Positions 8,364 through 43,454 of a stretch of DNA of 43,640 nt are shown here, piece after piece. Below the pieces are notes generated by a model. The model was not told where the DNA came from, searched no databases, and worked only from the letters and a program-made list of their open reading frames with translations. Both the position numbers and the translations under genes were made by a program. The first letter of the stretch is position 1; every line of letters starts with the position of its first letter. The stretch is from Spirochaetales bacterium (GTDB taxonomy: Bacteria > Spirochaetota > Spirochaetia > SZUA-6 > RPPD01), in assembly GCA_016929065.1 (NCBI GenBank), contig JAFGJO010000067.1, positions 1 through 43,640 of the forward strand, in the 5' to 3' direction.

Positions 8364-8372
8364 CTTTTTCAT

Positions 8373-8401
8373 AATATAATGTTTGCTTCAGGACGTTTCA
8401 A
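8373..8401 (-). promoter_or_regulatory. Promoter of the hypF-hypC-hypD operon
   Basis: On the minus strand TTGAAA (8401-8396), a 17-base spacer, and TATATT (8378-8373). Nine bases separate the -10 box from ATG 8363, so the transcript should begin about 3 bases before that codon. Confidence 0.7.
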
Positions 8402-8451
8402 CCGGGAAATCAGTTATTTTGCCTCGGACAGATTTTTAAAGGAATTATTGC

Positions 8452-8484
8452 AAAAAACGGGGCTATCCTGCTTGAGGGACAGCC
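8452..8484 (-). terminator. Terminator of the DUF4349-like gene
   Basis: Minus-strand stem GGCTGTCC / GGATAGCC (one G-U pair) with an 8-base loop, then CCG and a run of six T. It isolates the DUF4349-like gene from hypF. Confidence 0.75.
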
Positions 8485-8498
8485 ACGTTATCGGGACG

Positions 8499-9335: not shown

Positions 9336-9592
9336 GACAACCTCCAGCTATATTTTGTTGCAGTATATCCGAAAGCATGAAAGTAATTGTTTTCTTGAGG
9401 TAAAATCTTGTAAAAAATAATTATTTCCGGGTGGAAAACGAAATATTTTCTTCGATCCATTCAACATTTGATCTGTTTATCTGTTATAAATATCAGGAAA
9501 ATCAATTCAAATAATTTTATTGTTTTTTTAGCATTATTATAAAACTGATGATATAATGACTCTATAATTATACAGGCAGGGAGAAAACACTT

Positions 9593-10198
9593 ATGTCAGA
9601 TATACAAAAAGATTTAAACCTTAAACGTCCCGGGGGGGTGACCTTTGCAGCAGTCATGATGATTATTTTCGGTGTCTCAGGACTTGGCGGAGCGCTGCTT
9701 AATTTTCTGGTGATTGCCCTCACGGGCAGCCCGGCGGGTATTTTCAAGATTATGAGGGCGATGTATCCTCCATATATGCACGAATACCTGGACAGCATGA
9801 TGGCCGCATTTCAGGGGAATGCAGCGGTGATGTATCTCATGTATATTTTCGGCCTCGCGGCCTCGGTAATCGGGCTGATTGCAGGAATTTCACTCATGAC
9901 CTCCAGAAAAAGAGGAATTCTGCTCTCAAAAGTATATCTTGTGGGGTATACACTAACGCTTATTCTTACCTCTATCTGGACATTCAGCCTTTTGGGTATC
10001 CTCGCCGACAGTACCGGATATCTGTTCCCTTCCGGCAGTGTCTCCGGCCGCTCGATCGAAGCATTCAGCGGAATCATGCGGGCTACGTATTATGTGAGCG
10101 GTATCATCGGTATTGCAATTTCTGCAGGCTACGTTATTGCGATCTTTGTTGTTCTGAATCAGCAGAAGAGCAGGGATTATTTTGCCTTACTGCCATAG
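9593..10198 (+). CDS. Multi-pass membrane protein of unknown function
   Basis: A 201-residue integral membrane protein that I do not recognise. After a short polar N-terminus (MSDIQKDLNLKRP) it has about four hydrophobic segments (roughly 15-42, 78-102, 110-135 and 160-190), with a small basic loop MTSRKRG between the second and third. GGGAGA 9 bases before the ATG supports the start. TATAAT-like boxes lie at about 9551 and 9563, without a clear -35. The next plus-strand gene, the RRM protein, has its own promoter, so this is probably monocistronic. The layout resembles small stress or DUF-type membrane proteins, but no family can be named. Confidence 0.65.
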   Translation: MSDIQKDLNLKRPGGVTFAAVMMIIFGVSGLGGALLNFLVIALTGSPAGIFKIMRAMYPPYMHEYLDSMMAAFQGNAAVMYLMYIFGLAASVIGLIAGISLMTSRKRGILLSKVYLVGYTLTLILTSIWTFSLLGILADSTGYLFPSGSVSGRSIEAFSGIMRATYYVSGIIGIAISAGYVIAIFVVLNQQKSRDYFALLP

Positions 10199-10292
10199 GG
10201 TAACTGTACTGTCATTGCCATATTCGACTCTATTGCAGCTTTTCAGAACGAATTCTCGGTTATTTTTTGGTGAAAAAAAATTAAAATAATGA

Positions 10293-10321
10293 TTGCATTA
10301 AATTCCACAAAGTGCTATATT
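10293..10321 (+). promoter_or_regulatory. Promoter with extended -10 for the RRM-protein gene
   Basis: TTGCAT (10293-10298), 17-base spacer ending in TGC, then TATATT (10316-10321). The start of transcription near 10328 leaves a leader of about 245 bases before the RRM-protein ATG at 10573. Confidence 0.65.
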
Positions 10322-10322
10322 A

Positions 10323-10526
10323 ATGAAAATTAGTTTAATTTTTGTGTTAATTTTATTTATTTTCTATTATCAGGAAATCTTGGTGATAGCGGTTATTGGA
10401 TTTTTATTGGTTTACTTCTTCAATGATTATTTTTCTGCGAAAACATCAATTCATGGCAAGACGATATCAACTCTAAAAACATTCCATTACGTAAATAAGT
10501 ATAATTCAAACACAGCGAATTTTTAA
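10323..10526 (+). CDS. Doubtful small hydrophobic open frame
   Basis: A 67-codon frame with two hydrophobic stretches and a polar tail. Against it: the ATG lies between the -10 box and the expected transcript start, no ribosome site precedes it or the GTG at codon 8, and A/T-rich leader DNA easily yields such hydrophobic translations. More likely it is part of the long untranslated leader of the RRM gene. Confidence 0.15.
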   Translation: MKISLIFVLILFIFYYQEILVIAVIGFLLVYFFNDYFSAKTSIHGKTISTLKTFHYVNKYNSNTANF

Positions 10527-10527
10527 T

Positions 10528-10553
10528 GAATTATTCCAAAAAGAGAATAATTC
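10528..10553 (+). promoter_or_regulatory. Hairpin just upstream of the RRM-protein ribosome site
   Basis: Perfect 9-bp stem GAATTATTC / GAATAATTC with an 8-base loop, ending 6 bases before the AAGGAG ribosome site of the RRM gene. Weak A/T pairing would make it temperature-sensitive. Confidence 0.5.
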
Positions 10554-10572
10554 GAATGTCAAGGAGTTTTCT

Positions 10573-10839
10573 ATGGCAAAAAAAATCTATGTGGGTAATC
10601 TGAGCTACAACACCGGCGAATCAGCTCTCAACGATCTGTTTGCAACACACGGTGAAATCGTGTCGACAAAACTGGTTTCAGACCAGATGACCGGCCGTTC
10701 AAAGGGTTTTGCCTTTATTGAAATGGCAAATGAAGCCGAGGCACAGGCAGCGATTGATGCTTTAAACGGAAAAGAAGTTGACGGCAGAAACATTAAAGTG
10801 AATGAAGCTATCGATAGACCGCGCAGAAACAATTACTAA
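10573..10839 (+). CDS. RRM-type RNA-binding protein (cold-shock-like)
   Basis: An 88-residue single RNA-recognition-motif protein. RNP2 is IYVGNL (5-10) and RNP1 is KGFAFIEM (44-51, approximate), with the usual beta-alpha-beta-beta-alpha-beta spacing and a short Arg/Asn-rich tail RPRRNNY. Small bacterial RRM proteins, first described in cyanobacteria, bind RNA and are often induced by cold. AAGGAG seven bases before the ATG sets the start. The gene has its own promoter with a long A/T-rich leader of about 245 bases and a strong terminator right after the stop, an arrangement like that of cold-shock genes. It has no evident link with the hydrogenase genes around it. Confidence 0.92.
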   Translation: MAKKIYVGNLSYNTGESALNDLFATHGEIVSTKLVSDQMTGRSKGFAFIEMANEAEAQAAIDALNGKEVDGRNIKVNEAIDRPRRNNY

Positions 10840-10846
10840 AATTATT

Positions 10847-10877
10847 AACCCGTCTGGTTTCCAGACGGGTTTTTTTT
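10847..10877 (+). terminator. Terminator of the RRM-protein gene
   Basis: An 11-bp stem AACCCGTCTGG / CCAGACGGGTT with a 3-base loop, ending in a run of T. It touches the stop codon of the converging regulator gene and may work for both strands. Confidence 0.9.
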
Positions 10878-13116
10878 ATTTTATGGGTTTCGCAACCTGC
10901 CTGCTCTTTTTCCATCTCAAGGGAGTAATTCCAGCATATTTTTTGAAAACAGTTGAAAAATAAAACTGATTATCATAGCCCAGTTTTTCGGCAATTTCTG
11001 CAATTTTATACCCGGTTGTCTCAAGCAGGGACATCGCCCGTTCCATCTTGATTTTCTCATGCAGTCTCTGTACGGTCGTACCGGTGAGTTTTCGTGTCCA
11101 TCGGACCAGCGTTGAGACAGAAACATTCAGTTCAAGGGCAAATTTTTCAATATTGGTGGGTTCAGTAATATACTGCGAAAGACATTTTACGATTTGATGA
11201 GACTGAAGGCTTTTCCCGCCCTTTTTTTTTACCATAAACAGTTTATCTGGATGCATTGCATACCCGGATTTACTGATAGCCGATTTATTCGGCAGTCGTC
11301 CATGCAGAGACGGGCTTTTCGGTGGTGTCATTGTGTGTTTGATGATTCTGTATATCGTCGGACTGATAATCATCCTGATCGTGTCATACAATGGGATATC
11401 AAACGGCCCCATCTCAAAAATGACATATCCGATATAAGATTCACGGTAATTGCACAGCTGAAACATCATGGAATACCGTTTGTTCGGATAGCAATTTTTT
11501 GGAAGTATACAGTGAGCGGAAACTTTTCCCTTGGTATGATCCCGGAAACTGTTGTTGTTTGCCTGATGCACTGCAACAATTCTTCCTGAACCGGGATGAT
11601 TTGCTTCAACATGCGTCAATACCACAAAAGCACCCGGTATTTCAAATTCCATGCAATTGATCTTGAGCAACTGGCCGAATTCTTCAAAATTTTCAACGGC
11701 ATTGTAATCGGCAGCAAAAAATGCCATCTTTCCCATCTGGTACGTATTGTTCATACGTGACATTGTTATATAATTTATGGATATCCGGATCATGACGCGT
11801 GCCTGATGAAATATATTCTCCGCAACAAACACCATACCAGGATTTATTTTAATTTCAGAAAGAAACATAATCCGGATCTCGCTGATAAAAGAATCCAGGG
11901 TGAGGATTTTTTCTATTGAGTACTTATTCCCGAAAAAATATTTTTTCAGAGCACTGACAAAATCACTGGTAGATTTTGTCTCCATGTCGTTGACAAGCGC
12001 ATTACAGATATCTTCCACGTATTCATTATTAAATTCAGGATCATACTTGTGAATAATTGTTTCCATACGGGTTTCGATAATACCCTTTTTGGATTGTATT
12101 ACATTATCTGCAGGTTTTTTCCCGGCAAAAGTTGACTGCTTTTTTGGGTGTTCCATCATCCTGTGTGCTGATACTTCCTGACAGCCGCAGGATTGCCGCG
12201 TAATAAATTCCACCGGCATGCGGGTCACTGCCAAAACAGGTTTTTTCAAAAGCTGATCCAGGATCAGCTGTATTGCGGTATACCCGTACTGATAATATTG
12301 CGGGTCAACTGTTGTAAGAGGCGGTTCTGCTCGAATCCCCTCAAAAGTATTGTTAAAACCCGTAATGGCAATATCCCCGGGTACCTGTATATTTCTCGCC
12401 TGCAGAATGTGTATCAGTCTGTTTGAAACGAGATCGCTGATCGTAACGATCGCTTCGATATCTTTTTTTGGTTTCAGTTTATTTTTGTCAAAAAAACTGG
12501 ATACCGCCTGACTGATAAAACGGTGGTCAACGTCCTTCAGGATGTAGACAAGGTCCTCATTGTACGGAATATTTTTTTCCTGGAGCACTTTTTTATAGGT
12601 TAAAAACCTTTCTTCATTGCAGTAATCATGGTGATACCCCTTTTTGTCCCCGATAAAGGCGATTTTTGTCAAACCGTGAACGTCGACAAGATGGTTCATG
12701 ATTCTGCGGATTCCAAGTTCATTATCGATAGTCAGAGAAGGAATGTTTTCAATCTTCATGCCCAGACATACACTGGGGACCGTCTTGATTTCAGCATGAA
12801 ACTTTTCAACTTCTTCGAATGACATGATGTATGCAATTGAAGAAGCCCAGGAAATGAGCCCGTCTATATTCCTTTTATTGAGAAACGGAAAAACTTCCTT
12901 GTAGTACTGTCCAAAAGTAAATGTATCCCCCAGGGAATATTTGTATCCGCTGCAAAAATTGATAAGATTGACATCAAGGTCCTTGGCCGCGGAATTCACC
13001 CCGGCGACCAGTTCCTGGGCAAGACTGCTCCTGAAATCGGCAATGGCAAGAAAACCGATGGTCGTTCTTTCAGATGAGCCGGTTGCCTTTATTCTTTTTT
13101 TTGTTTCATTTATCAT
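10876..13116 (-). CDS. AraC-family regulator with LacI/GalR-like sensor domain
   Basis: A 746-residue transcription regulator. Residues from about 18 to 310 form a LacI/GalR-type periplasmic-binding-like sensor (TTIGFLAIADFRSSLAQELVAGV start; IAITGFNNTFEGI and PPLTTVDPQYYQYGYTAIQLI near its end), but no N-terminal LacI helix-turn-helix is present. A middle region of about 300 residues is unassigned. The C-terminal 100 residues are an AraC/XylS double helix-turn-helix (FALELNVSVSTLVRWTRKLTG and IAEIAEKLGYDNQFYFSTVFKKYAGITP). This architecture is frequent in spirochaetes, where such proteins probably sense sugars. I chose ATG 13116 (GGAGTGG upstream) because the longer frame starts at a TTG inside the TTGACA -35 hexamer. 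Its target is not evident; two tandem repeats upstream suggest autoregulation. Confidence 0.9.
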   Translation of the reverse strand: MINETKKRIKATGSSERTTIGFLAIADFRSSLAQELVAGVNSAAKDLDVNLINFCSGYKYSLGDTFTFGQYYKEVFPFLNKRNIDGLISWASSIAYIMSFEEVEKFHAEIKTVPSVCLGMKIENIPSLTIDNELGIRRIMNHLVDVHGLTKIAFIGDKKGYHHDYCNEERFLTYKKVLQEKNIPYNEDLVYILKDVDHRFISQAVSSFFDKNKLKPKKDIEAIVTISDLVSNRLIHILQARNIQVPGDIAITGFNNTFEGIRAEPPLTTVDPQYYQYGYTAIQLILDQLLKKPVLAVTRMPVEFITRQSCGCQEVSAHRMMEHPKKQSTFAGKKPADNVIQSKKGIIETRMETIIHKYDPEFNNEYVEDICNALVNDMETKSTSDFVSALKKYFFGNKYSIEKILTLDSFISEIRIMFLSEIKINPGMVFVAENIFHQARVMIRISINYITMSRMNNTYQMGKMAFFAADYNAVENFEEFGQLLKINCMEFEIPGAFVVLTHVEANHPGSGRIVAVHQANNNSFRDHTKGKVSAHCILPKNCYPNKRYSMMFQLCNYRESYIGYVIFEMGPFDIPLYDTIRMIISPTIYRIIKHTMTPPKSPSLHGRLPNKSAISKSGYAMHPDKLFMVKKKGGKSLQSHQIVKCLSQYITEPTNIEKFALELNVSVSTLVRWTRKLTGTTVQRLHEKIKMERAMSLLETTGYKIAEIAEKLGYDNQFYFSTVFKKYAGITPLRWKKSRQVAKPIK

Positions 13117-13164
13117 TTGATTGTTCCACTCCGGGATAAAAATACAACATACCTTTATGCCATC

Positions 13165-13194
13165 ACAATATTTTTTCATGGAGCAATGTGTCAA
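13165..13194 (-). promoter_or_regulatory. Promoter of the AraC/LacI-sensor regulator
   Basis: Minus-strand TTGACA (13194-13189), an 18-base spacer and TATTGT (13170-13165). The transcript would start near 13158, giving a 42-base leader to ATG 13116. Confidence 0.6.
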
Positions 13195-13204
13195 GATAAT
13201 ATTA

Positions 13205-13240
13205 GACCAGATTTTATGTATTGACCAGATATTATATATT
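13205..13240. repeat. Tandem 18-bp direct repeat, likely regulator operator
   Basis: GACCAGATTTTATGTATT (13205-13222) is followed at once by a copy with two changes (13223-13240). The pair ends 10 bases upstream of the -35 box of the AraC regulator. AraC proteins commonly bind tandem direct repeats, so this is a good candidate for its own operator. Confidence 0.6.
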
Positions 13241-13307
13241 TAAAAATTCAGTTCCAGACGGCTGTCCCGACAGATCATGATACATCAACGGGTCAGGCTG
13301 ATACAGA

Positions 13308-13979
13308 TTAACCCCTGTTCGTTGATTGCGCACTCCCCAGCCACGTTACAAGCTTTCCGATTCCTTCTTCTTTATCTGATGATACGACAAATACTTCACT
13401 TTTCCCGTTTACATTCAAAATATTCTGTTTGTATTGCTCTGCATTTACTTTGAGGTAGGGAACAAGGTCAATTTTCGTAATAACAGCAGCTTCGGAGTCA
13501 CGAAACAGCAAGGGATACTTCAGCGGTTTGTCTTCTCCCTCTGTCACCGAGATAACGGCAATTTTTGCTTGCTCGCCAATGTCAAACTCCGCGGGGCAAA
13601 CAAGGTTCCCGACATTCTCGACGAAGACGATATCATAATCGGCAAGCGTCAGATCGGAGAGCACGCGGAATATCGTCTCTGCACTCAAATGACAGGCCCC
13701 GTGGGTAACAATCTGATGGGCATGAATATTTACGGCACTCAGACGCTCTGCATCATTTGCTGTCTCGACATCCCCTTCGAGTACCAGACATTTTTTGCCG
13801 TGTTCCTTTTCCAGTAATGGACACAGTTTTTCCAGGAGCGCTGTCTTTCCGCAGCCGGGTGAGCCGATAATATTGTACATCGTTATATTGTTTTGTTTGA
13901 GAATATCACGGATTTTTCCGGTCCACTCTTCGTGGCTGCTCATGATGTTCTTATATATATTTATTTTCTTTTCATTCAT
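13308..13979 (-). CDS. hypB: Hydrogenase nickel-incorporation GTPase HypB
   Basis: A 223-residue SIMIBI-class GTPase that, with HypA, inserts nickel into the hydrogenase large subunit. It has the P-loop GSPGCGKT (about 40-47), GDVETANDAER, and the metal-site residues THGACHLSA and NVGNLVCPAEFD. The guanine specificity motif is TKIDL. There is no N-terminal His-rich nickel-storage stretch, so it belongs to the plain HypB form. It overlaps hypA by 8 bases and closes the long rex-hyd operon. No clear terminator follows: the 328 bases to the next gene region hold only a small CTGTC/GACAG dyad and the regulator's promoter. Confidence 0.95.
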   Translation of the reverse strand: MNEKKINIYKNIMSSHEEWTGKIRDILKQNNITMYNIIGSPGCGKTALLEKLCPLLEKEHGKKCLVLEGDVETANDAERLSAVNIHAHQIVTHGACHLSAETIFRVLSDLTLADYDIVFVENVGNLVCPAEFDIGEQAKIAVISVTEGEDKPLKYPLLFRDSEAAVITKIDLVPYLKVNAEQYKQNILNVNGKSEVFVVSSDKEEGIGKLVTWLGSAQSTNRG

Positions 13980-14325
13980 CCTTATCCACTCCCATATTCT
14001 CTATGTACAGTTCCCTGCCTTCTTTTATCTCGATATTTCTTGAACTGCAATGTGCACACACAAACATCAACCCCCGTTTGGGCATTTCTTTTTTACAGTC
14101 ATTACAAAAAAGAATAACCGGTTTCCAGGTAATTGTCAGTATGCTTTTTTGAAAGGGAGTGTCCATTGTGACAACCTCCCATGCAGCCCGCAGGTTTTCT
14201 TCGATTACCTGATGCATTTCGCCGATCACCAGCTGGACAGTATTTACTTTCGGCCGGGGATGTAACGTATTGTATTCTTTTTCAAGGGCGGAAAATATTG
14301 ATTCACAAATTGAAAACTCATGCAC
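13972..14325 (-). CDS. hypA: Hydrogenase nickel chaperone HypA
   Basis: A 117-residue HypA/HybF. The N-terminus MHEFSICESIF carries the nickel-binding His2 and Glu3. The zinc site is two CxxC pairs: CNDC and CAHC near residues 74-94. It hands nickel to the large subunit together with HypB, whose start codon it overlaps by 8 bases. The ribosome site is weak, and the gene follows the protease after 12 bases, so it is likely read by coupling with that upstream gene. Confidence 0.95.
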   Translation of the reverse strand: MHEFSICESIFSALEKEYNTLHPRPKVNTVQLVIGEMHQVIEENLRAAWEVVTMDTPFQKSILTITWKPVILFCNDCKKEMPKRGLMFVCAHCSSRNIEIKEGRELYIENMGVDKDE

Positions 14326-14337
14326 AGTTTCGTTATA

Positions 14338-14790
14338 TCACATAATTTCTTTTATGACAGCATCAATGCAGGTTTCAACTTTCCGTAAAACTGTTTCAGA
14401 CATTGGTTTGCCGAAAGCCATTCCCTCAGGCTGAATCCCGAAAATGACCACTTGCTGTAATTCAGGATATGTATTTTTTGCAATTTCAATCAGGGAAAGC
14501 AGATCGCCCTCATGCAGGGAACAGTGCGCAAGCTGTTTCACCGAAACCACATCCTCCGGCGTAAAGCGGAAAATCGTTCCGGGTTTTTTGTTCATATACG
14601 CGCAGTCGACAACCACCAGTTTTTCAACCTCTTCAAGCATATGGAGCAGGGAAAAGCCGGTTGTCCCGCAATCGACGAACATTTCCTTTTTATGAGGATA
14701 TTTTTCGATAAGTTTTTCGATAATGAGCGGGCCTATCCCCTCATCTTCTGCCAGGGGATTTCCGAATCCAATTACTTTGATCTTAAGCAT
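14338..14790 (-). CDS. Hydrogenase maturation endopeptidase (HyaD/HycI type)
   Basis: A 150-residue M52-family protease that removes the C-terminal tail of the hydrogenase large subunit after nickel insertion. The nickel-contacting acidic residue lies in GNPLAEDEGIG (family consensus GNxLxxDDGxG, here with E-D-E), a second in VVDCAYM and a His in the HCSLHEGD stretch. Its substrate is almost surely the neighbouring HydA, whose mature end is DPCISCSTH with a 7-residue tail. The Shine-Dalgarno site is poor; a hairpin repeat lies in the 108-base gap to hydA and may lower or uncouple expression. Confidence 0.93.
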   Translation of the reverse strand: MLKIKVIGFGNPLAEDEGIGPLIIEKLIEKYPHKKEMFVDCGTTGFSLLHMLEEVEKLVVVDCAYMNKKPGTIFRFTPEDVVSVKQLAHCSLHEGDLLSLIEIAKNTYPELQQVVIFGIQPEGMAFGKPMSETVLRKVETCIDAVIKEIM

Positions 14791-14805
14791 AAACTGATTT
14801 GAGTT

Positions 14806-14884
14806 TCTCGCAAAGATCGCGAAGATCGCAAAGGAGTGTCATTCTTGACTTCTTTTCTTTGCGCACTCCGCGTGCTCTGCGTGA
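14806..14884. repeat. Inverted repeat with 9-bp periodic CGCARAGNN units
   Basis: Left arm 14806-14835 holds three units (CGCAAAGAT, CGCGAAGAT, CGCAAAGGA); the right arm 14856-14884 holds three imperfect units in inverse orientation (on the minus strand CGCAGAGCA, CGCGGAGTG, CGCAAAG). The arms pair into a hairpin with a 20-base loop, between hydA and the protease. Related copies are at 37801-37831 and 39617-39745. Confidence 0.7.
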
Positions 14885-14898
14885 AATATCTTCTTTCT

Positions 14899-16194
14899 TT
14901 ACACAAATTCTACATTCAAAAAATGCGTTGAACAGGAAATACACGGATCATACGACCGCACCAGCATTTCCAGAAGCAGCGTTATCTCTTCCTGCGGCCG
15001 GTCAATAATCTGCGGCACGAATGCCTCAAAATCCTTCTGGATGTTTCCATGGTTCTGCCCTGTCGGAATACAGATATTCGCTTTTATACATTTCCCGTCA
15101 TCATCAAATGCATAGCGGTGATATAAAATACCGCGCGGTGCTTCAACACACCCGACACCCTCACCTGCTTTTGGTTTTGAAACAGGTTTTTCCGGCTTGA
15201 TCCCCGCGGTCAGAAGGTCATCAATCAGCTGGAGAGAGTGCTCGACGACCTGAACAGCCTCGACGACCTGCGCAACATTGTTGAAATACGGATTGCAGTT
15301 TCCTTTTTTCAGTCCAAACTTCTCTGCGACCGATTTTGCGAGCGGGAGGAGTTGTTCCGCATTATTGTTGAATCGTGCAAGTGCACCCACTGCGAATGAT
15401 TCGCGATGCCATTTACACCATTTTGCAGTGGACTGCGGGGAAACGTATTCATTGGCGACACTTTCAAACTGATGAATATCAGTAAGCTCGTCAATATCAG
15501 TGCTTTTTATTTTTCCATGGTAAAATGTATAGTATTCCGGCATTGTCAGCGAAATATATTCTGTCGGTCTGTCAAATGCCGGTAATTTGCCTGCAAGAGA
15601 GAGGACCACATCGGCAATGGTGCTTAACAGCGGGATAGTCGCCTCCAGCTGTTTTTTATAGCCAAGGAGTTCCTGATTCGTCGGCAGTTTCGAAAATCCG
15701 CCCGGTTTGACCGTTACCGGATGCGTCATTCTTCCACCAATCAGTTCCATGCCGTCATTCCCGGTTTTGTGCGCAGTAATGATTGTTTTTACAACATCGG
15801 GGTGCGAGGCAACCAGCGGGACCACAGACTTTTGCCCCAGAAGATCCGGAGCAACGAGATAGCCGACATGCAGGACATGGCTTTCAATCTGTTCTGCATA
15901 ATGCATTAAAATCCGCAACTTGTCTGTCTGCGGCGAGACAGTGATGCCCAGCGCATCTTCAACACCTTTAATCGCAGCGAGTGAGTGAGTAACCGAACAA
16001 ATTCCGCAAATCCGCGACACAATCGTCTGAATGTCTTCATAGCTTTTCCCTTTTACCATTGCCTCAAAAAAACGCGGTGCTTCAGGGACCTGCCATTCCA
16101 CTTTTTCTATTGTCCCGTCGCTTGCTTTGACGCGGATGTTTCCGTGCCCCTCAACGCGGGTAACATGTTTGACATTGATATCTACATTAGCCAT
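14899..16194 (-). CDS. hydA: Group 3b [NiFe]-hydrogenase large (alpha) subunit
   Basis: A 431-residue catalytic subunit of a cytoplasmic NAD(P)-linked [NiFe]-hydrogenase, which oxidises or produces H2 and in some relatives also reduces sulfur. The proximal motif RICGICSVTHSLAA (about 62-75) and the distal motif DPCISCSTH near the C-terminus supply the four Cys that hold nickel and iron. The 7-residue tail after His (FLNVEFV) is the predicted cut by the neighbouring endopeptidase. The order hydB-hydG-hydD-hydA matches the sulfhydrogenase operon of Pyrococcus, which supports group 3b over 3c or 3d. No Tat signal is carried by the partner, so it is cytoplasmic. GAGGAG before the ATG is strong, and the preceding spacer is highly structured. 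hydA here is the [NiFe] name, not the [FeFe] enzyme. Confidence 0.95.
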   Translation of the reverse strand: MANVDINVKHVTRVEGHGNIRVKASDGTIEKVEWQVPEAPRFFEAMVKGKSYEDIQTIVSRICGICSVTHSLAAIKGVEDALGITVSPQTDKLRILMHYAEQIESHVLHVGYLVAPDLLGQKSVVPLVASHPDVVKTIITAHKTGNDGMELIGGRMTHPVTVKPGGFSKLPTNQELLGYKKQLEATIPLLSTIADVVLSLAGKLPAFDRPTEYISLTMPEYYTFYHGKIKSTDIDELTDIHQFESVANEYVSPQSTAKWCKWHRESFAVGALARFNNNAEQLLPLAKSVAEKFGLKKGNCNPYFNNVAQVVEAVQVVEHSLQLIDDLLTAGIKPEKPVSKPKAGEGVGCVEAPRGILYHRYAFDDDGKCIKANICIPTGQNHGNIQKDFEAFVPQIIDRPQEEITLLLEMLVRSYDPCISCSTHFLNVEFV

Positions 16195-16214
16195 TCTGCG
16201 TCTCCTCTATCAGT

Positions 16215-16351
16215 TGATCAGAAAACCTGTTGAGGTTTTCTGATCATTTCAATTATTATTGAAATTGCGCATGGATTTGTATATGGCAAATCCAGAGCAA
16301 CTTTCTTAAACAGGTTGTTGAAAAGGCTCAACTTTTTTTTACCAACCTGTT
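16215..16351 (-). promoter_or_regulatory. Four successive hairpins between hydD and hydA
   Basis: In mRNA order: AACAGGTTG/CAACCTGTT (16351-16309, starting within the hydD stop codon), TGGATTTG/CAAATCCA (16294-16272), ATTTCAAT/ATTGAAAT (16265-16246) and a 14-bp TGATCAGAAAACCT/AGGTTTTCTGATCA with a 4-base loop (16246-16215), all perfect. The last ends 6 bases before the GAGGAG site of hydA. There is no promoter or T run of note. The set probably stabilises, splits or slows reading of the transcript. Confidence 0.8.
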
Positions 16352-17078
16352 ATGTGTTGAAAAGCATAAGCTTCTCTTCAAGATCTTTCATGGTTTTGCC
16401 GTATTTTTCCATGACATCCCGGGCTGCATTGACATTTGGATCATCCACAAAGCCGCGGCAGCCGAAGCACCAGAATCCATTGGAAGGGCATTTTGCGCCG
16501 CACCCTGCCCGGATCACCGGCCCAAGACAGATTTCGTTATACTCATACCGGCAGATATTCCCGGCTTTTTTGCACTCAACGCACACCGGATAATCCGGAA
16601 TATTCGGCGTTTTTCCGGCACCAAGGCACCGGATGATATAGGTAAACTCTTTTTTGTCGATTGGACATCCATGTATATAAACATCAACCTTGACAACATC
16701 AGCCACAGACTTTGTCTGCATGGTTGCCAAATGCGGTAATGAAAAATCTTTCGAATAAACCGTTTTCTGCATGTCTTCAAGCGGCCCATGATTCTTCAGT
16801 TTGTTAACGCCGCCTATGGTAGCACATGCTCCAAGGGCGACAAGAATTTTTGCTTTTTCCCGTATTTTCCTGATCCGCTCTTCATCTTCAGGTCGCGTGA
16901 TTGATCCTTCGATAATGGCGATATCATAATCATCACTGTGGTCACTCATTCCTTCTCGCCATTGAACTGGCTCGATAATGGAGAGGAGATCGACAATTTC
17001 TGCTTCAAGATTGACAATCTGCAGCTGACATCCTTCACAACAGGCAAAATCAAATATTGCAACTCGTGGTTTCGACAT
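16350..17078 (-). CDS. hydD: Group 3b [NiFe]-hydrogenase small (delta) subunit
   Basis: A 242-residue electron-transfer subunit that partners HydA. The N-terminal FDFACCEGCQ and the later GACATIGG and HGCPID segments carry the four Cys of the proximal [4Fe-4S] cluster. The C-terminal half has two further Cys groups (CVECKKAGNICRYEYNEICLG, AGCGAKCPSNGFWCFGC) for medial and distal clusters. There is no Tat signal peptide. The start is ATG 17078, not the longer frame: GGAGG lies 7 bases upstream, and the ATG overlaps the hydG stop codon (TAATG). Translation is thus coupled to hydG but separated from hydA by 155 structured bases. Confidence 0.94.
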   Translation of the reverse strand: MSKPRVAIFDFACCEGCQLQIVNLEAEIVDLLSIIEPVQWREGMSDHSDDYDIAIIEGSITRPEDEERIRKIREKAKILVALGACATIGGVNKLKNHGPLEDMQKTVYSKDFSLPHLATMQTKSVADVVKVDVYIHGCPIDKKEFTYIIRCLGAGKTPNIPDYPVCVECKKAGNICRYEYNEICLGPVIRAGCGAKCPSNGFWCFGCRGFVDDPNVNAARDVMEKYGKTMKDLEEKLMLFNT

Positions 17079-17911
17079 TATATCGCCTCCCTGATATTTT
17101 CGATATCCGCATAGGAAAAGACCGGGCCGTCCTGACAGCAGTACAGATTGTTGATCTGACAGTGGCCGCATTTCCCCACACCGCATTTCATGTGGCGTTC
17201 CAGCGACACATAGATATCCTGATGTTTCATGTTGTATTTACGCAGTTCAAGGATGGCAAATTTATACATAACCGGAGGACCGACGATCAGGGCAATGGTT
17301 TTTGCAGGATCAATCTCCACTTTTGAAAACAGTGTAGTGATAACCCCGACATTCCCCGTCCAGCCGTCTTCTGCAATATCTACTGTCTCAAGGACCGTGA
17401 CATCCTTTATTGCAGCCCATTTCTTTAATTCATCAATAAAAAGCCGCTGTGACGGCGTCCGTGTACCGGACAGTATGGTAACCTTGCCGTAATTCTTTCT
17501 GTTCTCCATGACATACTGAATCGCAGACCGGAGCGGGACAATTCCAAGGCCTGCACAGATAAAGACAATGTCTTTCCCCTTCATGGCGGTTTCAACGGGG
17601 AATGTTGTACCAAACGGCCCTCGGATCCCTATCTTTTCTCCCTGTTTCATTGTATGTATTTTATTGGTTACATTTCCGATTTTTCTGATAACCATCTCAA
17701 AGGTCCCGTTTGAACCCGGAGAAGAAGATATGGATATCGGCGCCTCCCCGATTCCGGGCAAAGATACTTCGGCAAACTGTCCCGGCATATGACCCAGCGG
17801 CTTGCCTGAATCGAGCTTGAAACTGAAATACATTTCGGTTTCGGTCATCTGTTTTGCTGCGGTTATGGTCGCATATTCCGGAAGATAAATGTTTGTTGCT
17901 CCTGATGCCAT
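17078..17911 (-). CDS. hydG: Hydrogenase gamma subunit, FAD/NAD(P)-binding reductase
   Basis: A 277-residue ferredoxin-NADP reductase-type subunit linking the hydrogenase to NAD(P)(H). The FAD-binding domain shows APISISSSPG (RxYS-like region here degenerate to PISIS) and GIRGPFG; the nucleotide domain shows FICAGLGIVPLRSAIQ; the C-terminal CGVGKCGHCQ...CCQDGP binds a [2Fe-2S] cluster as in dihydroorotate dehydrogenase electron-transfer subunits. The true start is ATG 17911, one base after the hydB stop and 8 bases after GGAGG; the 31 codons of the longer frame overlap hydB. The name follows the Pyrococcus operon and is unrelated to the radical-SAM HydG. Confidence 0.93.
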   Translation of the reverse strand: MASGATNIYLPEYATITAAKQMTETEMYFSFKLDSGKPLGHMPGQFAEVSLPGIGEAPISISSSPGSNGTFEMVIRKIGNVTNKIHTMKQGEKIGIRGPFGTTFPVETAMKGKDIVFICAGLGIVPLRSAIQYVMENRKNYGKVTILSGTRTPSQRLFIDELKKWAAIKDVTVLETVDIAEDGWTGNVGVITTLFSKVEIDPAKTIALIVGPPVMYKFAILELRKYNMKHQDIYVSLERHMKCGVGKCGHCQINNLYCCQDGPVFSYADIENIREAI

Positions 17912-17912
17912 A

Positions 17913-18932
17913 TTACGCCTCCGCCACTGCATTGAATATTTCAACCGGGTTTGCAATGCGTGCAACACACGCAGAAATACACCGGCCGCATCCGACACAG
18001 GCAATTTCTCCTATTTTTTCCGGAACATATTTGCCTTTACGATAATATCTGTGACGGTACCGGTCACTTTTATTTTTTCTGAAATTATGGTCACCGGCGA
18101 CTGTGGCAAAGTTTTCTATCATGCACCCGTCCCAGCTTCTTGTCCGTTCGCCGCTTTTAAGATCCCAGCCAAAATCATCCTGCACATCAAAGCAATAACA
18201 GGTGGGGCAAACCAGATTACATGATCCGCAGCTAAAGCATTTTTCAGCTTTTTCATTCCAGATTTTATGATCATATGCTTTCCCGAGTGCTGCGGGAAGC
18301 TCATTCACATTTGCTTTTAACAGCTGCTTTTTCAGCAGCTCCCTGTTCTTTTTCCATTTCTCGCTGCGTTTTGAAATATCAGCAGCCTGCGCATCAACTG
18401 CATTCTCCATCAAAGACAAAAGCTTTTTCCCCTTGTCTGAACCAGATTCGACGAGGTAGTCACTTCCTGTTTTTGTTACCAAAAGATCAAATCCTTTTTC
18501 AACATGATCAAACCCCAAAAAGCCCGAGAATGCATTTTCAGATATATTTTCCACATCACAGACGATAATCGTTGCTGCATTTCTTCTGGTTTGATAATAC
18601 ACATCATTATTTTTCATCGAAAACAATACATCAAGCTGTCGAATCGCAACAAAATCATACGGATGCACGCCAAACAGGATAAACGGTTCACCATCAACCG
18701 AGCTGTTGAAGCCTGATTCGCCAAATGAAAACAGCTGTTCAGTGGATGGCAGAAAATATTTCTTCGGCGGAAGGATCGTGATATCGTAATCGAGACGAAG
18801 ATTCTCGGCCTTTAAAAGTGCCCCGAATTCATATTTATCATCTTTTGACTGAACTCCAAACACTTTTTGCAGTCCTATAAGTTTTTCAACCCATTTCTCA
18901 AAATCCTTTTGGGATACTTTTTTAGTTCCCAT
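17913..18932 (-). CDS. hydB: Hydrogenase beta subunit, dicluster iron-sulfur protein
   Basis: A 339-residue subunit like HydB of sulfhydrogenase and subunit A of anaerobic sulfite reductase. It carries two C-terminal [4Fe-4S] motifs: CFSCGSCNLVCPTCYC and CVGCGRCISACVARIANP. It relays electrons between HydD and the flavin subunit HydG, or to ferredoxin-like partners. The start ATG 18932 has GGGAGG 5 bases upstream and overlaps the end of rex by 11 bases. The longer frame, starting at 18971, would run deep into rex and lacks a ribosome site. First enzyme gene of the operon. Confidence 0.93.
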   Translation of the reverse strand: MGTKKVSQKDFEKWVEKLIGLQKVFGVQSKDDKYEFGALLKAENLRLDYDITILPPKKYFLPSTEQLFSFGESGFNSSVDGEPFILFGVHPYDFVAIRQLDVLFSMKNNDVYYQTRRNAATIIVCDVENISENAFSGFLGFDHVEKGFDLLVTKTGSDYLVESGSDKGKKLLSLMENAVDAQAADISKRSEKWKKNRELLKKQLLKANVNELPAALGKAYDHKIWNEKAEKCFSCGSCNLVCPTCYCFDVQDDFGWDLKSGERTRSWDGCMIENFATVAGDHNFRKNKSDRYRHRYYRKGKYVPEKIGEIACVGCGRCISACVARIANPVEIFNAVAEA

Positions 18933-19614
18933 ACGACCTCCCTTCATCGGCAGATAAAATATTATTGCCATTATTCTTGATACTTGTTATTTGAAATGAT
19001 AATTTCATAAGATCAATAATTATTCTTGAATTGACCAATGCGACATATTCCGGGACATGCAGCATCGTGACAGAGAGATTCAATATTCCTGTTACCCCTG
19101 CTGTAACAAGTTTGTCGGCAACATCCTGTGCTGCTTCTGCAGGGACTGCGACAATCCCGACAGTGATTGCCTGTTTTTGAATTACTGCAGACAGTTCCGA
19201 AATGCACTGTATTGTATAGTCATCGATTTTTGTTCCGATCAGCTGCGGATTTGCATCGAATATTGATGTTATGACAAAGCCCTGTTTTCTGAATTCCTGA
19301 TGCAAAAGCAATGCCCTGCCGAAATTTCCTGCTCCGATTATGACAGCAGAACATGGTGTGGAAATACCAATCACCGCTTCCAGTGTGCTGACAAGGTCGT
19401 TGATATGATAACCCCTTTTTGAAATACCCTTGTATTCAGAAAGATAGGAAATATCCTGTCGTACCGTCGAGCTGGTAAGTTCCAAAGCAGCTGCAATTTC
19501 CTTTGAAGAAATCCATTGCCCGGTGGTGGAAGAAGAGATCATCCTCAAATACATGTAATACTTTGTGAGACGTTCAACAACAAATGGCGAAACACGGGAA
19601 TTGGCTTTTAACAT
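18922..19614 (-). CDS. rex: Redox-sensing transcriptional repressor Rex
   Basis: A 230-residue Rex. The N-terminal winged helix (VVERLTKYYMYLRMI; ISSKEIAAALELTSSTVRQDISYL) binds DNA. The Rossmann domain (VIIGAGNFGRALL, GAGNFG at 94-99) senses the NADH/NAD+ ratio; NADH releases it from DNA. It is the first gene of the hydrogenase operon and overlaps hydB by 11 bases. Because the hydrogenase itself uses NAD(P)(H), this makes a feedback loop: high NADH lifts repression of an H2-forming enzyme that could reoxidise it. A Rex-like operator overlaps its promoter. No Shine-Dalgarno site precedes ATG 19614, and the -10 box ends 9 bases away, so the mRNA is probably leaderless. Confidence 0.96.
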   Translation of the reverse strand: MLKANSRVSPFVVERLTKYYMYLRMISSSTTGQWISSKEIAAALELTSSTVRQDISYLSEYKGISKRGYHINDLVSTLEAVIGISTPCSAVIIGAGNFGRALLLHQEFRKQGFVITSIFDANPQLIGTKIDDYTIQCISELSAVIQKQAITVGIVAVPAEAAQDVADKLVTAGVTGILNLSVTMLHVPEYVALVNSRIIIDLMKLSFQITSIKNNGNNILSADEGRSYGN

Positions 19615-38779: not shown

Positions 38780-39610
38780 ATGGACATTCGGGATGCAGTC
38801 AATTTTGAGTATTACAAGAAAATGGATACCGCGGAACTCCGAAAAAACTTTCTGATACAGGATCTCTTTAAAAAAGATTCACTGAATTTGACGTACAGTT
38901 ATTATGACAGAATGATCGTCGGCGGGATCTGCCCTACAAAACCGATCAAACTGACAATGGCCAGGGAAATTATCGGCGGAGATTACCTTTTGGAACGCCG
39001 TGAAGCAGGCATTATCAATATAGGAAGCAAGGGTGATGTCACCGTTGACGGCACTGTATATACGCTTGACTCACGGGACGCTCTGTATATCGGGATGGGT
39101 GCCAAAGAAGTTGTCTTTTCAAGCGCAGACGCTTCCAAACCGGCAAAGTTTTATTTCAATTCATCACCCGCGCATAAAGCATATCCGACAACAAAAATCG
39201 GAATCAAGGATGCGGAGCCGATTCATACCGGTGAAGCTGAAAAAAACAACAAGAGAACAATTTACAAGTTCATTCATCCGGACGGCGTAAAAAGCTGTCA
39301 GCTTGTCATGGGGATGACCCTGCTTGATCCGCCGAGTATCTGGAACACCATGCCGTGCCACACACACCCGCGCAGAATCGAAGCCTATTTTTACTTTGAC
39401 ATTCCAGGCGACGACCTGCTCTTTCATCTGATGGGAAAAGCTGATGAAACACGTCATATCGTTGTCAGAAACGAAGAAGCGGTCCTGTCACCGAGCTGGT
39501 CACTCCATTCGGGTGTCGGTACCTATAAATACAGTTTTATCTGGGGGATGTGCGGTGAAAACCAGACATTCACTGATATGGACGGGATTCCAATGAAGGA
39601 TATCAAATAA
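38780..39610 (+). CDS. kduI: 5-keto-4-deoxyuronate isomerase
   Basis: A 276-residue KduI, which converts 4-deoxy-L-threo-5-hexosulose uronate (from unsaturated pectin or glycosaminoglycan units) to 3-deoxy-D-glycero-2,5-hexodiulosonate. The zinc ligands are visible: His194 and His196 in CHTHP, Glu201 in RIEAYFYF and His243 in WSLHSG. The length is standard. GGAGGAGAATT before the ATG is strong. A short open frame with its own GGAGG site lies just upstream and overlaps the start. The next gene, 206 bases on, encodes the following pathway step. Confidence 0.96.
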   Translation: MDIRDAVNFEYYKKMDTAELRKNFLIQDLFKKDSLNLTYSYYDRMIVGGICPTKPIKLTMAREIIGGDYLLERREAGIINIGSKGDVTVDGTVYTLDSRDALYIGMGAKEVVFSSADASKPAKFYFNSSPAHKAYPTTKIGIKDAEPIHTGEAEKNNKRTIYKFIHPDGVKSCQLVMGMTLLDPPSIWNTMPCHTHPRRIEAYFYFDIPGDDLLFHLMGKADETRHIVVRNEEAVLSPSWSLHSGVGTYKYSFIWGMCGENQTFTDMDGIPMKDIK

Positions 39611-39616
39611 AAAAAA

Positions 39617-39745
39617 CCGCAGGAGGCGCGGAGAAACGCAGAGAGAAGATAGTGAAAAAAAGAATATTGATTGATGAACACTTGAATTTTAATTCTTTTT
39701 ATTTTGATATTTCAGAATCTCAGCATACTCTGCGTGCTCTGCGTT
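39617..39745. repeat. Inverted-repeat element between kduI and kduD
   Basis: Left arm 39617-39645 (CGCAGGAGG, CGCGGAGAAA, CGCAGAGAG) and right arm 39728-39745 (on the minus strand two CGCAGAGNN units) face each other across about 80 bases of A/T-rich DNA with no open frame. It looks like a small non-autonomous element or REP-type repeat. Confidence 0.6.
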
Positions 39746-39816
39746 GAATAAATTATAAAAAATGTTTTATTACCCGGTATTTTTAATAGAAATTTATTGT
39801 ATAGAGGAGGAACTTA

Positions 39817-40605
39817 ATGTTTTCAGAAAAAAGCTTTGATCTGACAGGGAAGGTAGCCCTTGTTACCGGAGGATCATATGGGATTGGATTTGCGATTGCC
39901 CAGGGACTTGCGAAGTTTGGTGCAAAAATAACATTTAACGATATCAACCAGGAACTGGTTGATAAAGGACTTGCAGCATACAAAGAAGAAGGTATCGCAG
40001 CAAATGGATATGTTGCTGATGTTACCAATGAAGACCAGATCAATGAACTGGTGAAAAAAATCGAGTCAGATGTCGGCCCAATTGACATTCTGGTAAACAA
40101 CGCGGGAATCATTAAAAGAATCCCAATGCATGAAATGTCTGCCGATGAATTCCGTCAGGTGATCGATGTTGACCTCAATGCTCCCTTTATCTGCGCCAAG
40201 GCGGTCCTGCCGTCCATGATGAAAAGGAAAAGCGGAAAGATCATCAACATCTGCTCGATGATGAGTGAATTGGGCCGTGAAACAGTATCTGCCTATGCGG
40301 CTGCAAAGGGGGGCTTAAAAATGCTCACCCGGAATATTGCATCAGAATACGCTGAATACAATATTCAATGTAACGGGATCGGACCGGGATACATTGAAAC
40401 TCCCCAGACTGCACCGCTCCGCACTCCGGACCATCCGTTTAACAAATTCATTATCTCTAAAACTCCCGCTGCACGCTGGGGATTGACCGACGACCTCATG
40501 GGCCCGGCGGTATTCCTGGCATCGAGTGCTTCTGATTTTATCAACGGCCATGTGCTGTATGTAGACGGCGGGATTCTTGCGTATATCGGGAAAATGCCCA
40601 AATAA
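39817..40605 (+). CDS. kduD: SDR dehydrogenase, 2-dehydro-3-deoxy-D-gluconate 5-dehydrogenase / gluconate 5-dehydrogenase
   Basis: A 262-residue short-chain dehydrogenase. The NAD(P) site is TGGSYGIG (17-24), NNAG is present, and the catalytic set is Ser in NICSMMS with YAAAK. The C-terminal ISKTPAARWG...GHVLYVDGGILAYIGK matches the gluconate 5-dehydrogenase type of SDR. Pairing with kduI argues that its main job is the KduD step: 3-deoxy-D-glycero-2,5-hexodiulosonate to 2-keto-3-deoxygluconate. GAGGAGG before the ATG sets the start. A strong terminator ends the transcript. kdgK and kdgA, which would complete the path, are not in view. Confidence 0.9.
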   Translation: MFSEKSFDLTGKVALVTGGSYGIGFAIAQGLAKFGAKITFNDINQELVDKGLAAYKEEGIAANGYVADVTNEDQINELVKKIESDVGPIDILVNNAGIIKRIPMHEMSADEFRQVIDVDLNAPFICAKAVLPSMMKRKSGKIINICSMMSELGRETVSAYAAAKGGLKMLTRNIASEYAEYNIQCNGIGPGYIETPQTAPLRTPDHPFNKFIISKTPAARWGLTDDLMGPAVFLASSASDFINGHVLYVDGGILAYIGKMPK

Positions 40606-40625: not shown

Positions 40626-40660
40626 GGACAGTCCCTTTCTTTACGGACTGTCCTTTTTTT
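40626..40660 (+). terminator. Terminator of kduI-kduD, probably bidirectional
   Basis: Stem GGACAGTCC / GGACTGTCC with a 10-base loop and a run of seven T. The stop codon of the converging clp gene overlaps the T run. Confidence 0.88.
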
Positions 40661-43437
40661 TATAATACTTTCACCTTGCCGCCCTCTGCGGATACAAGCA
40701 GTTTCTTGTTTTCGGGATTTTCAAAAATAAAACTCGCGGCGGCGGACATGACTTCCTTTTCAAACATTCTTTCAAGATTCCGCACACCGTATTTTTTGCT
40801 GTATCCGCGTTCAAGAACAAATTCGATAAACAGGGGGTCAAATTCAACCTCAATCCCTTTTTTGGCAAATGTTTTTTCGGCGCGCTTCACAATCAGGTTT
40901 TTCAATATTTTTTTGGCAGTTGATTTATCAATGTAATTGAAGCAGATAATCTCATCTATTCGGTTCAGGAATTCAACAGGAAATGTACTGCTTAAATCAA
41001 CGTCAGCCTTTATTCCTTCTCCTTCCATGTCGAACCCGATACCGGCTTCTGCCTTACAGCCTGCATTGCTGGTCATGACAATGGTGACATTCGAGAAAAA
41101 AATCTCCCTGCCTTTTGTGTCCTTTGCTTTGCCTTCATCAAATATTTCCAGAAACAGTTTCAGCACCTCAGGATGTGCCTTTTCCACCTCATCGAGAAGC
41201 AGCAGGCAGGACGGATTCTCCAGAATCTCTTTCGAGAAAATCGGCACCTCGTCATAGCCGACATATCCGGGCGGACTGCCGATCAGTTTGGAAACAGAAT
41301 GCGGCTCTGTAAACTCAGCCATGTTGAGATTGATCAGTTTTTCCTCGGAACCGTACAGGAATTGTGATAATTGCTTTGCCAGATATGTTTTGCCAACGCC
41401 TGACGGCCCTATAAACAGAAAAACACCGTCCGGCTGTTCAGGTTTCAGATCCAGCTTCTGCTTTGTCAGGCGGATAATTTTACATACCCGGTCGATGGCA
41501 TCGTTCTGTCCGTATATCTTTTTTTTCATGGATGACTCAATTTCCATCAGACGCTGTCCACGGTCATCTTCGGCTTCGAGAAATTTTGCGCCAATGAACT
41601 CACCGACAATTCGTTTGACCGTATACTCATCCAGTACGGTTTTTTTCTCGAAAATACAGCGGGAACAGGAATTTTCCAGAACATCGATCGCCTTGTCGGG
41701 GAAAACCCGATTTTTAATTTCATCGTTTGCGAGGGTCACAATAAGATCAAGTATTTTTTCGGGAATCTCTATTTTATAATGGGATGACATTTTTGATTTC
41801 AGATTTTTCAGAATTCTCAATGTTGAATCGTAATCAAGTTCATCAACATGGATCGGATAAAACCGGCGCTGAAATGCCGAATCCTTTACAAAATATTTAT
41901 TGTATTCTTCTGTCGTTGTCGCACCAATCAGCCGCAGTTCGCCACGGGCAAGCGCAGGTTTCAGAATATTTGCGGCATCAAGGGAGCTGTCGGTAGTTTC
42001 CCCGGCACCCAGAACTGTATGGATTTCATCCACAAACAGAATAATTTTTTCGTTGGCCGTTACCTCATCAATAATCCGCTGGAGCCGTTTTTCGAAATCA
42101 CCCCTGAACTGGGTTCCGGCGACGAGCATGCCCATGTTGATTTCAAGGATTTCCTTGTCTTTGAAAAAATCAGGAACATCCCCTGAAATAATTTTGGCGG
42201 CCATTCCCTCGATTATTGCGGTTTTCCCGACTCCGGCACGGCCGACGATCAGGGGATTGTTTTTCTTTATTTTTAATAGAACCTCCATGACAGACTGAAT
42301 TTCTTTTTCCCGTCCAAGCACATCAAACAATTTGTGCTCACGCGCCAGCGCAGTCACATTCCTTCCAAATTTCTGGGTATAAAATTCTTCTTCCTTCTCC
42401 AGTTTTTCTGCAACCGGCTCTCCCTTTTGTGCTGCATCAGAATTTAGCTGCTCTTCATGTTCCTTTTTGGCAGGAATCGATGCATTCTTTTTATATGTCG
42501 CTGATTTCAGGTCTTTGGCGGTTATGGGTGTTTGCCGGGCAATTTCATCGGAATATTTTTCTTTCAGTCTTTCCATCTCATCTTTGGCCGGTATATAACT
42601 CTGGTCTATTTTTAGTGCTTTGGCAAACATATCGTGCGCTTTTCGGTATTCTTCAATGCTTGAAAATACCAGCCCCAGGTTGTACAGGGCAAAAAGATAC
42701 TCATCATCATGTTCAAGCGCACGGGCGTAGTAATACAGAGCAGTCTGATAATCTTTTTCATCATAATAAAGGATTCCCAGATTGTTGAGTGCAGCGACAT
42801 AGCCCTGGTCCAGCTCAACAGCCTTCATCAGATATTCCCGTGCCTTTGCCGTGTCTCCCCTTTTTTTTTCGATCAGTGCGCAGTTAAAATAAGGAAATTT
42901 ATACGAGGGAAATATTTTCATGGCATTGTGAAAAGCCGCGTCAGCCTTGTTCAACTCTTCTTTTTCAAGGTAATACAGCCCTATTTCATTATATGCCGGA
43001 TAATACTCATCATTCAGGGCGAGTGTTTTTTCAAACCACTCTTTTGCCTCGTTGTTTTTTTTCTCGTCACCAGGATATTTTTGGCGGATTGAAAGCCCTA
43101 TGTTGAAATGTGCCCAGTAATATTCCGGCTGTATTTCTATCGCCTTTTTATAGGATTCAACAGCACGATCATAATCCTTCATGTCATAATAAATATTTCC
43201 GAGGTCGTTAAGCGTATTCACATCTTTCGGCTGCAGTTCAAGACTCCTGGTATAGTAGTCACATGCCTTGTTTCTGTTGCCGCGCGAATTTTCAATTTTG
43301 GCCAGTTTCTGCATGCTGGCGATATGGGTTGCATCTTTTTTCAATATCGCTTCATAGAGTGCCGCTGCATTGTCATAATCATTCTTGTAAAAGAAATCAT
43401 TCGCATTTTCAAGCAGGCGGTCTATTTCTGTACTCAT
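40660..43437 (-). CDS. TPR-ClpA/ClpB-type AAA+ unfoldase fusion
   Basis: A 925-residue two-ring AAA+ protein. Residues 1-295 are about seven TPR repeats (for example NTLNDLGNIYYDMKDYDRAVESYKKAIEIQP). A charged linker (296-360) leads to D1 (about 365-610; Walker A GRAGVGKT 399-406, Walker B ILFVDE 466-471) and D2 (about 640-925; Walker A GPSGVGKT 677-684, pore loop GYVG near 724, Walker B LLLLDE 745-750). There is no Clp-N domain and no ClpB/ClpC-type coiled-coil M domain, so the core is ClpA-like. IGF at 800-802 lies where ClpA has its ClpP-binding IGL loop, suggesting a ClpP partner. The TPR part may select substrates. AGAGGA before the ATG fits the start. Confidence 0.9.
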   Translation of the reverse strand: MSTEIDRLLENANDFFYKNDYDNAAALYEAILKKDATHIASMQKLAKIENSRGNRNKACDYYTRSLELQPKDVNTLNDLGNIYYDMKDYDRAVESYKKAIEIQPEYYWAHFNIGLSIRQKYPGDEKKNNEAKEWFEKTLALNDEYYPAYNEIGLYYLEKEELNKADAAFHNAMKIFPSYKFPYFNCALIEKKRGDTAKAREYLMKAVELDQGYVAALNNLGILYYDEKDYQTALYYYARALEHDDEYLFALYNLGLVFSSIEEYRKAHDMFAKALKIDQSYIPAKDEMERLKEKYSDEIARQTPITAKDLKSATYKKNASIPAKKEHEEQLNSDAAQKGEPVAEKLEKEEEFYTQKFGRNVTALAREHKLFDVLGREKEIQSVMEVLLKIKKNNPLIVGRAGVGKTAIIEGMAAKIISGDVPDFFKDKEILEINMGMLVAGTQFRGDFEKRLQRIIDEVTANEKIILFVDEIHTVLGAGETTDSSLDAANILKPALARGELRLIGATTTEEYNKYFVKDSAFQRRFYPIHVDELDYDSTLRILKNLKSKMSSHYKIEIPEKILDLIVTLANDEIKNRVFPDKAIDVLENSCSRCIFEKKTVLDEYTVKRIVGEFIGAKFLEAEDDRGQRLMEIESSMKKKIYGQNDAIDRVCKIIRLTKQKLDLKPEQPDGVFLFIGPSGVGKTYLAKQLSQFLYGSEEKLINLNMAEFTEPHSVSKLIGSPPGYVGYDEVPIFSKEILENPSCLLLLDEVEKAHPEVLKLFLEIFDEGKAKDTKGREIFFSNVTIVMTSNAGCKAEAGIGFDMEGEGIKADVDLSSTFPVEFLNRIDEIICFNYIDKSTAKKILKNLIVKRAEKTFAKKGIEVEFDPLFIEFVLERGYSKKYGVRNLERMFEKEVMSAAASFIFENPENKKLLVSAEGGKVKVL

Positions 43438-43454
43438 TATTTTCCTCTGATATA

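Follow-up and report, generated by a model that had tools for sequence, protein, structure and literature searches.

Target choice by bacterial ClpP proteases depends on the N-domains of the motors and on detachable adaptors. To our knowledge, proteolysis in Spirochaetota has been little studied. Among the described Hsp100 proteins, human mitochondrial CLPB/Skd3 carries ankyrin repeats in place of the Clp N-domain as an arm for substrates or assembly (PMC9934407). ClpG targets aggregates through a special N1 domain, keeps a reduced M-domain together with an N2 domain of the Clp_N type, and works as a stand-alone disaggregase (PMC8129007).

Here, we have analysed a gene for a double-ring Hsp100/Clp unfoldase with an N-terminal TPR superhelix (hereafter TPR-Clp), which lies in a window of 43,640 nucleotides, i.e. 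the whole stretch of spirochaete DNA under analysis. Like CLPB/Skd3, TPR-Clp has a repeat-protein arm instead of the Clp N-domain, but the human protein uses ankyrin repeats rather than TPRs, has one AAA+ ring, acts as a disaggregase and is not bacterial. With ClpG/ClpK and ClpL it shares a lineage-specific N-terminal domain on an Hsp100 motor and, as we would expect, direct targeting of substrates, whereas ClpG retains the reduced M-domain and the N2 domain. The best structural matches are ClpA and ClpC, the motors of ClpAP and ClpCP, which have in common with TPR-Clp the two AAA+ rings, the Walker motifs, the pore loops and a hydrophobic-Gly-Phe/Leu loop for ClpP in D2. TPR-Clp differs from both in the TPR superhelix that stands in place of Clp_N, in forming a separate clade, and in a junction of 33-35 residues without an M-domain. 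Our literature search, with subscription papers outside its reach, found no TPR-fused double-ring Clp unfoldase; TPR-Clp is a conserved branch of the Clp family that is, as far as this search reached, undescribed. We propose that TPR-Clp is probably a ClpP-partner AAA+ unfoldase that carries its own peptide receptor, to which substrates or adaptors would bind. The features of the gene are as follows.

40660..43437, minus strand: TPR-Clp gene, 925-aa double-ring Hsp100/Clp unfoldase with N-terminal TPR superhelix (ORF, Pfam, NCBIfam, homologues)
43443..43448, minus strand: Shine-Dalgarno-like AGAGGA, 5 nt upstream of the ATG (sequence reading)
42535..43437, minus strand: TPR domain, residues 1-301, eight TPRs (16 helices) and a capping helix (Pfam, AlphaFold, conservation)
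within 42535..43437, minus strand: conserved asparagines of TPR helices A, N77, N112, N150, N185, N218 and N253 (homologue alignment)
42385..42534, minus strand: linker, residues 302-351, mostly disordered and variable between homologues (AlphaFold, alignment)
41638..42384, minus strand: D1 AAA+ module, residues about 352-600 (Pfam, conservation, fold comparison), with Walker A GRAGVGKT 399-406, pore loop QFRG 443-446 and Walker B FVDE 468-471
41554..41658, minus strand: D1-D2 junction, 35 residues (594-628), without M-domain (length comparison)
40663..41556, minus strand: D2 AAA+ module and small C-terminal domain, residues 628-925 (Pfam, conservation, fold comparison), with Walker A GPSGVGKT 677-684, pore loop GYVG 724-727 and Walker B LLDE 747-750
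40996..41064, minus strand: flexible D2 loop, residues 792-814, after sensor-1 MTSN (pLDDT, column entropy)
41032..41040, minus strand: IGF tripeptide, residues 800-802, putative ClpP-docking motif ([ILVM]GF in 16/16 homologues)

The reading frame starts with ATG and is open throughout its 925 codons. Pfam assigns the N-terminal ~295 residues to TPRs, residues 396-524 to AAA, 669-830 to AAA_2 and 837-906 to ClpB_D2-small, and Clp_N was not found among the 25 best of 40 Pfam families. The best NCBIfam model is that of ClpA (562.7 bits), whose alignment begins only at profile position 142 (residue 324), so that TPR-Clp lacks the ClpA N-domain. A preliminary description of this DNA, made from the letters, had placed the TPRs where Clp-N sits, and in this it agrees with both profile searches; its count of about seven repeats gives way to eight in the AlphaFold model of the whole chain, which consists of 16 TPR helices with a cap, a disordered linker (pLDDT below 50 at residues 325-350) and two AAA+ modules. 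It had also read intact Walker motifs in both ATPase modules and an IGF tripeptide in the loop that docks to ClpP. The tripeptide lies exactly at residues 800-802, and the Walker A and B motifs, the pore loops of D1 and D2, the arginine-finger and the sensor regions are all present and conserved in the alignment of 16 homologues.

The TPR groove

As the motor fills the fold-search list of the whole chain, the TPR part was predicted and searched separately. Predicted alone, the TPR domain has a mean pLDDT of 97, and residues 1-297 superpose best on the superhelix of O-GlcNAc transferase (OGT; 1w3b, Z 27.6 over 292 residues, 2.7 Å). In the ranking by sequence, designed consensus TPRs come first and OGT follows as the first natural protein. 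Asparagine at position 6 of helix A is invariant in TPR4, TPR6 and TPR8 (N112, N185 and N253), and asparagine at position 5 is conserved in TPR3 and TPR5 (N77 and N150) and invariant in TPR7 (N218); several tyrosine and glycine residues are also among the invariant TPR positions. N112 and N185 align with ladder asparagines of the OGT repeats. The TPR domain of OGT is like that of TPR-Clp both in its fold, the closest found, and in position-6 asparagines in alternate repeats, while TPR-Clp has fewer repeats, carries position-5 asparagines in the other repeats, and is fused to an unfoldase rather than to a glycosyltransferase. The asparagines of TPR-Clp do not form a continuous ladder at position 6, which is occupied only in TPR4, TPR6 and TPR8; the ladder thus amounts to half of that in OGT, a point against the peptide-receptor reading. 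This alternation between positions 5 and 6 suggests that the array grew by two-repeat units.

The asparagine ladder of OGT holds the backbone of the bound peptide (PMC8586251). That the groove of TPR-Clp would likewise bind extended peptides is supported, though not proven, by its OGT-like superhelix and by the asparagines that align with those of OGT.

Binding to a scaffold or a part in oligomerisation would be equally possible for the TPRs. That they are a docking or assembly arm of this kind, directed to a membrane, to a scaffold or to the control of the oligomeric state, with substrates entering the D1 pore unaided, is in our view unlikely. What speaks for such an arm is, in part, the ankyrin repeats of Skd3, which organise higher oligomers. 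In addition, five genomes of another Spirochaetota class encode a conserved, probably membrane-associated protein of 270-336 residues immediately downstream of TPR-Clp, and in some of them the two reading frames overlap (L073, 524-1471, minus strand; L074, 490-1476, minus; L077, 612-1421, minus; L078, 4285-5121, plus; L079, 617-1423, minus); we call it DUF697-like, an assignment that is weak, with one match at 1.9e-4. This protein is a possible membrane partner of TPR-Clp. However, neither this genome nor any of the tested genomes of its order yielded the DUF697-like gene, yet the groove asparagines are conserved there, and ladders of the OGT type bind peptide backbone. As an explanation of the copy described here, a DUF697-like genomic partner is ruled out by the missing gene. 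In another genome, G110, the DUF697-like gene is present and unlinked to TPR-Clp.

The D2 loop and ClpP

Between the sensor-1 motif MTSN and the conserved F819 of D2, most alignment columns of the 16 homologues have an entropy of 2-3 bits. Within this variable loop, G801 and F802 are invariant (16/16), and position 800 is always I, L, V or M. The equivalent place is occupied by IGF in ClpA and by LGF in ClpC of the same spirochaete genomes and by IGL in E. coli ClpA, and ClpB has nothing comparable to the tripeptide there. Loops with IGL or IGF are known to dock into the clefts of ClpP (PMC7707817). According to the preliminary description, a tripeptide that is buried rather than in a ClpP-facing loop would speak against its reading; in the AlphaFold model residues 795-811 have pLDDT below 50, as expected for a free docking loop, and there is no sign of burial. 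Moreover, the motor finds its top Foldseek matches in chains of ClpC and ClpA from structures that include ClpP, and comparison with the ClpC and ClpA chains gives VIA Z of 36-38 over 540-570 residues.

ClpP is encoded in all 17 TPR-Clp carriers, with two full-length copies in most of them, this genome included. The architecture thus tracks with clpP, which the preliminary description had put forward as a check; since clpP is nearly universal, this co-occurrence is weak evidence and, taken by itself, uninformative on a partnership. The TPR-Clp gene described here has no clpP gene next to it. Taken together, the invariant GF in a variable loop, the flexible and unburied state of this loop in the model and the presence of clpP in every carrier make the use of ClpP by TPR-Clp likely. 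In one carrier (G081, 93% complete), the Hsp100 search gave only ClpB, TPR-Clp, ClpX and HslU and neither ClpA nor ClpC, these types being judged by ORF length; in this genome TPR-Clp may be the only double-ring partner of ClpP.

A rather unlikely alternative is that TPR-Clp is a ClpP-independent remodeller or disaggregase, in which the TPRs would target aggregates or complexes and the motor would release or refold them in the manner of ClpG, ClpL and human CLPB/Skd3. Hsp100 proteins with special N-domains, such as the N1 domain of ClpG and the ankyrin repeats of Skd3, are indeed disaggregases, and a different job is plausible where ClpA, ClpC and ClpX already feed ClpP, as they do in most carriers. 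Against this, the sole conserved point in the variable loop of all 16 homologues is a tripeptide of the ClpP type, which is missing in ClpB and even in related proteins of Omnitrophota, and TPR-Clp has no M-domain.

If TPR-Clp is a ClpP partner with a built-in receptor, as we propose, its action could be pictured as follows. Six subunits would assemble into a double ring of D1 and D2, and D2 would dock onto ClpP via the [ILVM]GF loops. The flexible linker of ~50 residues would hold the eight-TPR superhelix of each subunit above the entrance of D1, where the groove, with its conserved asparagines and aromatic residues, could capture extended segments that belong either to a substrate or to a dedicated adaptor. 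The captured segment would then be handed on to the D1/D2 pore, which would unfold the chain and thread it into ClpP, presumably for degradation.

Position in the Hsp100/Clp family

In the tree of D1-D2 sequences, the 16 TPR-Clps form one clade (support 100/99) apart from ClpA, ClpB and ClpC, in a reference set without ClpE, ClpL, ClpV and ClpK. Forcing TPR-Clp and ClpA together was rejected (p-AU 0.0005) in a quick tree to which Omnitrophota relatives had been added, so that TPR-Clp is not simply a ClpA with an exchanged domain. TPR-Clp also stays below the NCBIfam cut-offs of ClpB, ClpG and ClpK (432-441 bits against 1900 for ClpG/ClpK), as it does below the equivalog cut-off of ClpA (562.7 against 993.15 bits). 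The D1-D2 junction is 33-35 residues long in TPR-Clps, compared with 37-55 in ClpA, 96 in ClpC and 157-161 in ClpB, a length that leaves TPR-Clp without an M-domain. The motor of TPR-Clp is a separate Hsp100 lineage, distinct from ClpA, ClpB and ClpC. Of the replaced N-domain in the preliminary description, the TPRs at the N-domain position stand, and a ClpA, ClpB or ClpC with a swapped N-domain is not what the trees show.

That an ordinary ClpA recently exchanged its N-domain for a TPR block in this lineage is accordingly very improbable. ClpA is the best NCBIfam match, TPR-Clp shares with such a protein the missing M-domain, and TPRs are readily shuffled; the score lies nevertheless far under the ClpA cut-off, the motor clade is separate with the union rejected as above, and the same genome has its own clpS-clpA. 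In addition to clpS-clpA, the genome encodes clpB, clpC, clpX-clpP and a second clpP, and with such genes alongside, TPR-Clp is an addition in most carriers.

Divergent double-ring Hsp100 proteins of Omnitrophota (L113-L115) resemble TPR-Clp in their motors, which score 570-640 bits with the TPR-Clp profile, and in having no M-domain. Unlike TPR-Clp, they have no TPRs, carry a different N-domain of ~200 residues, and show no [ILVM]GF in the D2 loop. The ClpA copies of the window's order score 431-526 bits with a smaller TPR-Clp profile (A1). A very divergent double-ring Clp of 733-757 residues (branch length 2.17) was also seen in two genomes of a family of this order (L063 and L064; family f2, G008 and G003); its D1-D2 junction has 35 residues and its N-terminal region is unlike TPR.

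Distribution, neighbourhood and significance

The preliminary description had suggested a search for the same architecture across genomes. The single-ORF layout recurs at full length and without internal stops in at least 16 Spirochaetota genomes of eight families, and the carriers number 17, from eight families and 15 genera, when one partial copy at a contig edge is counted. Homologues occur in the window's own family, in a second family of its order and, elsewhere in the phylum, in further families and classes, with identities of 54-62% inside the order and 42-58% outside. Within the order, where up to 34 candidates were scored per genome, TPR-Clp was found in 2/3 genomes of family f1, in 5/5 of family f2 and in 0/18 of the other four families. 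In the class of G074 it is present in seven of nine genomes. As the scan of the phylum scored two candidates per genome, the distribution given here is a minimum. In three carriers (L080-L082) the first two repeats are missing, which leaves about six TPRs rather than eight. A pattern scan of GTDB r220, which requires exact TPR motifs and may miss other phyla, found TPR-Clps only in spirochaetes; among them are a deer-cecum genome, GWB1_27_13 and metagenome-assembled genomes whose isolate names are of the Zodletone type. The in-depth searches covered two phyla. Outside Spirochaetota, none of the 384 genomes around the Omnitrophota locus showed TPR-Clp, and three of them showed related motors that lack both the TPRs and the tripeptide. 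Homologues come almost entirely from draft genomes. The window is a single contig of a draft genome, yet a frameshift, a chimeric contig or a wrong ORF that fused two genes, an error for which the preliminary description had allowed, can practically be dismissed, since the same stop-free frame recurs in independently assembled genomes of eight families.

TPR-Clp lies near recA, folK and scpA in this genome and in G001, which points to a stable chromosomal gene. Here, a kduI-kduD pair for uronate breakdown (window 38780-40605, plus strand) is convergent with TPR-Clp and separates it from the recA-folK-scpA cluster; TPR-Clp is closer to recA in G001. No substrate or adaptor candidate is encoded beside TPR-Clp in this genome, and no CIRCE heat-shock operator (HrcA) was found within the window with up to 3 mismatches. 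Further away, the window holds a NiFe-hydrogenase region (6012-18971, minus strand) with the large subunit, a 20-kDa subunit, an FAD/NAD reductase, the HycI maturation protease, a CobW/HypB-like protein and HypF. An origin from mobile DNA was rejected after searches of plasmids, where no place covers 80% of the query, and of viral contigs, where the best 80 matches are to motor domains of other Clps; no match among these extends below residue 262, and TPRs were recognisable in none of them. Anti-phage defence was also rejected, the PADLOC matches being to generic AAA and TPR only.

Our results add a separate branch to the Hsp100 tree, and TPR-Clp may need no separate adaptors to recruit its targets. 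We tentatively suggest a broader reading, which we hold to be possible though somewhat doubtful: TPR-Clp would be a further, as yet undescribed deep branch of the double-ring Hsp100s that feed ClpP, typical of several Spirochaetota lineages, in which an asparagine-lined TPR superhelix replaces the entire layer of separate adaptors (ClpS, MecA etc.) and the motor itself selects ClpP targets by extended peptide segments. If this is true, a motor that permanently carries a peptide-binding superhelix would provide a natural test of how substrates are handed over from a receptor to an unfoldase. As TPR grooves can be re-targeted, TPR-Clp is also a possible template for programmable degradation.
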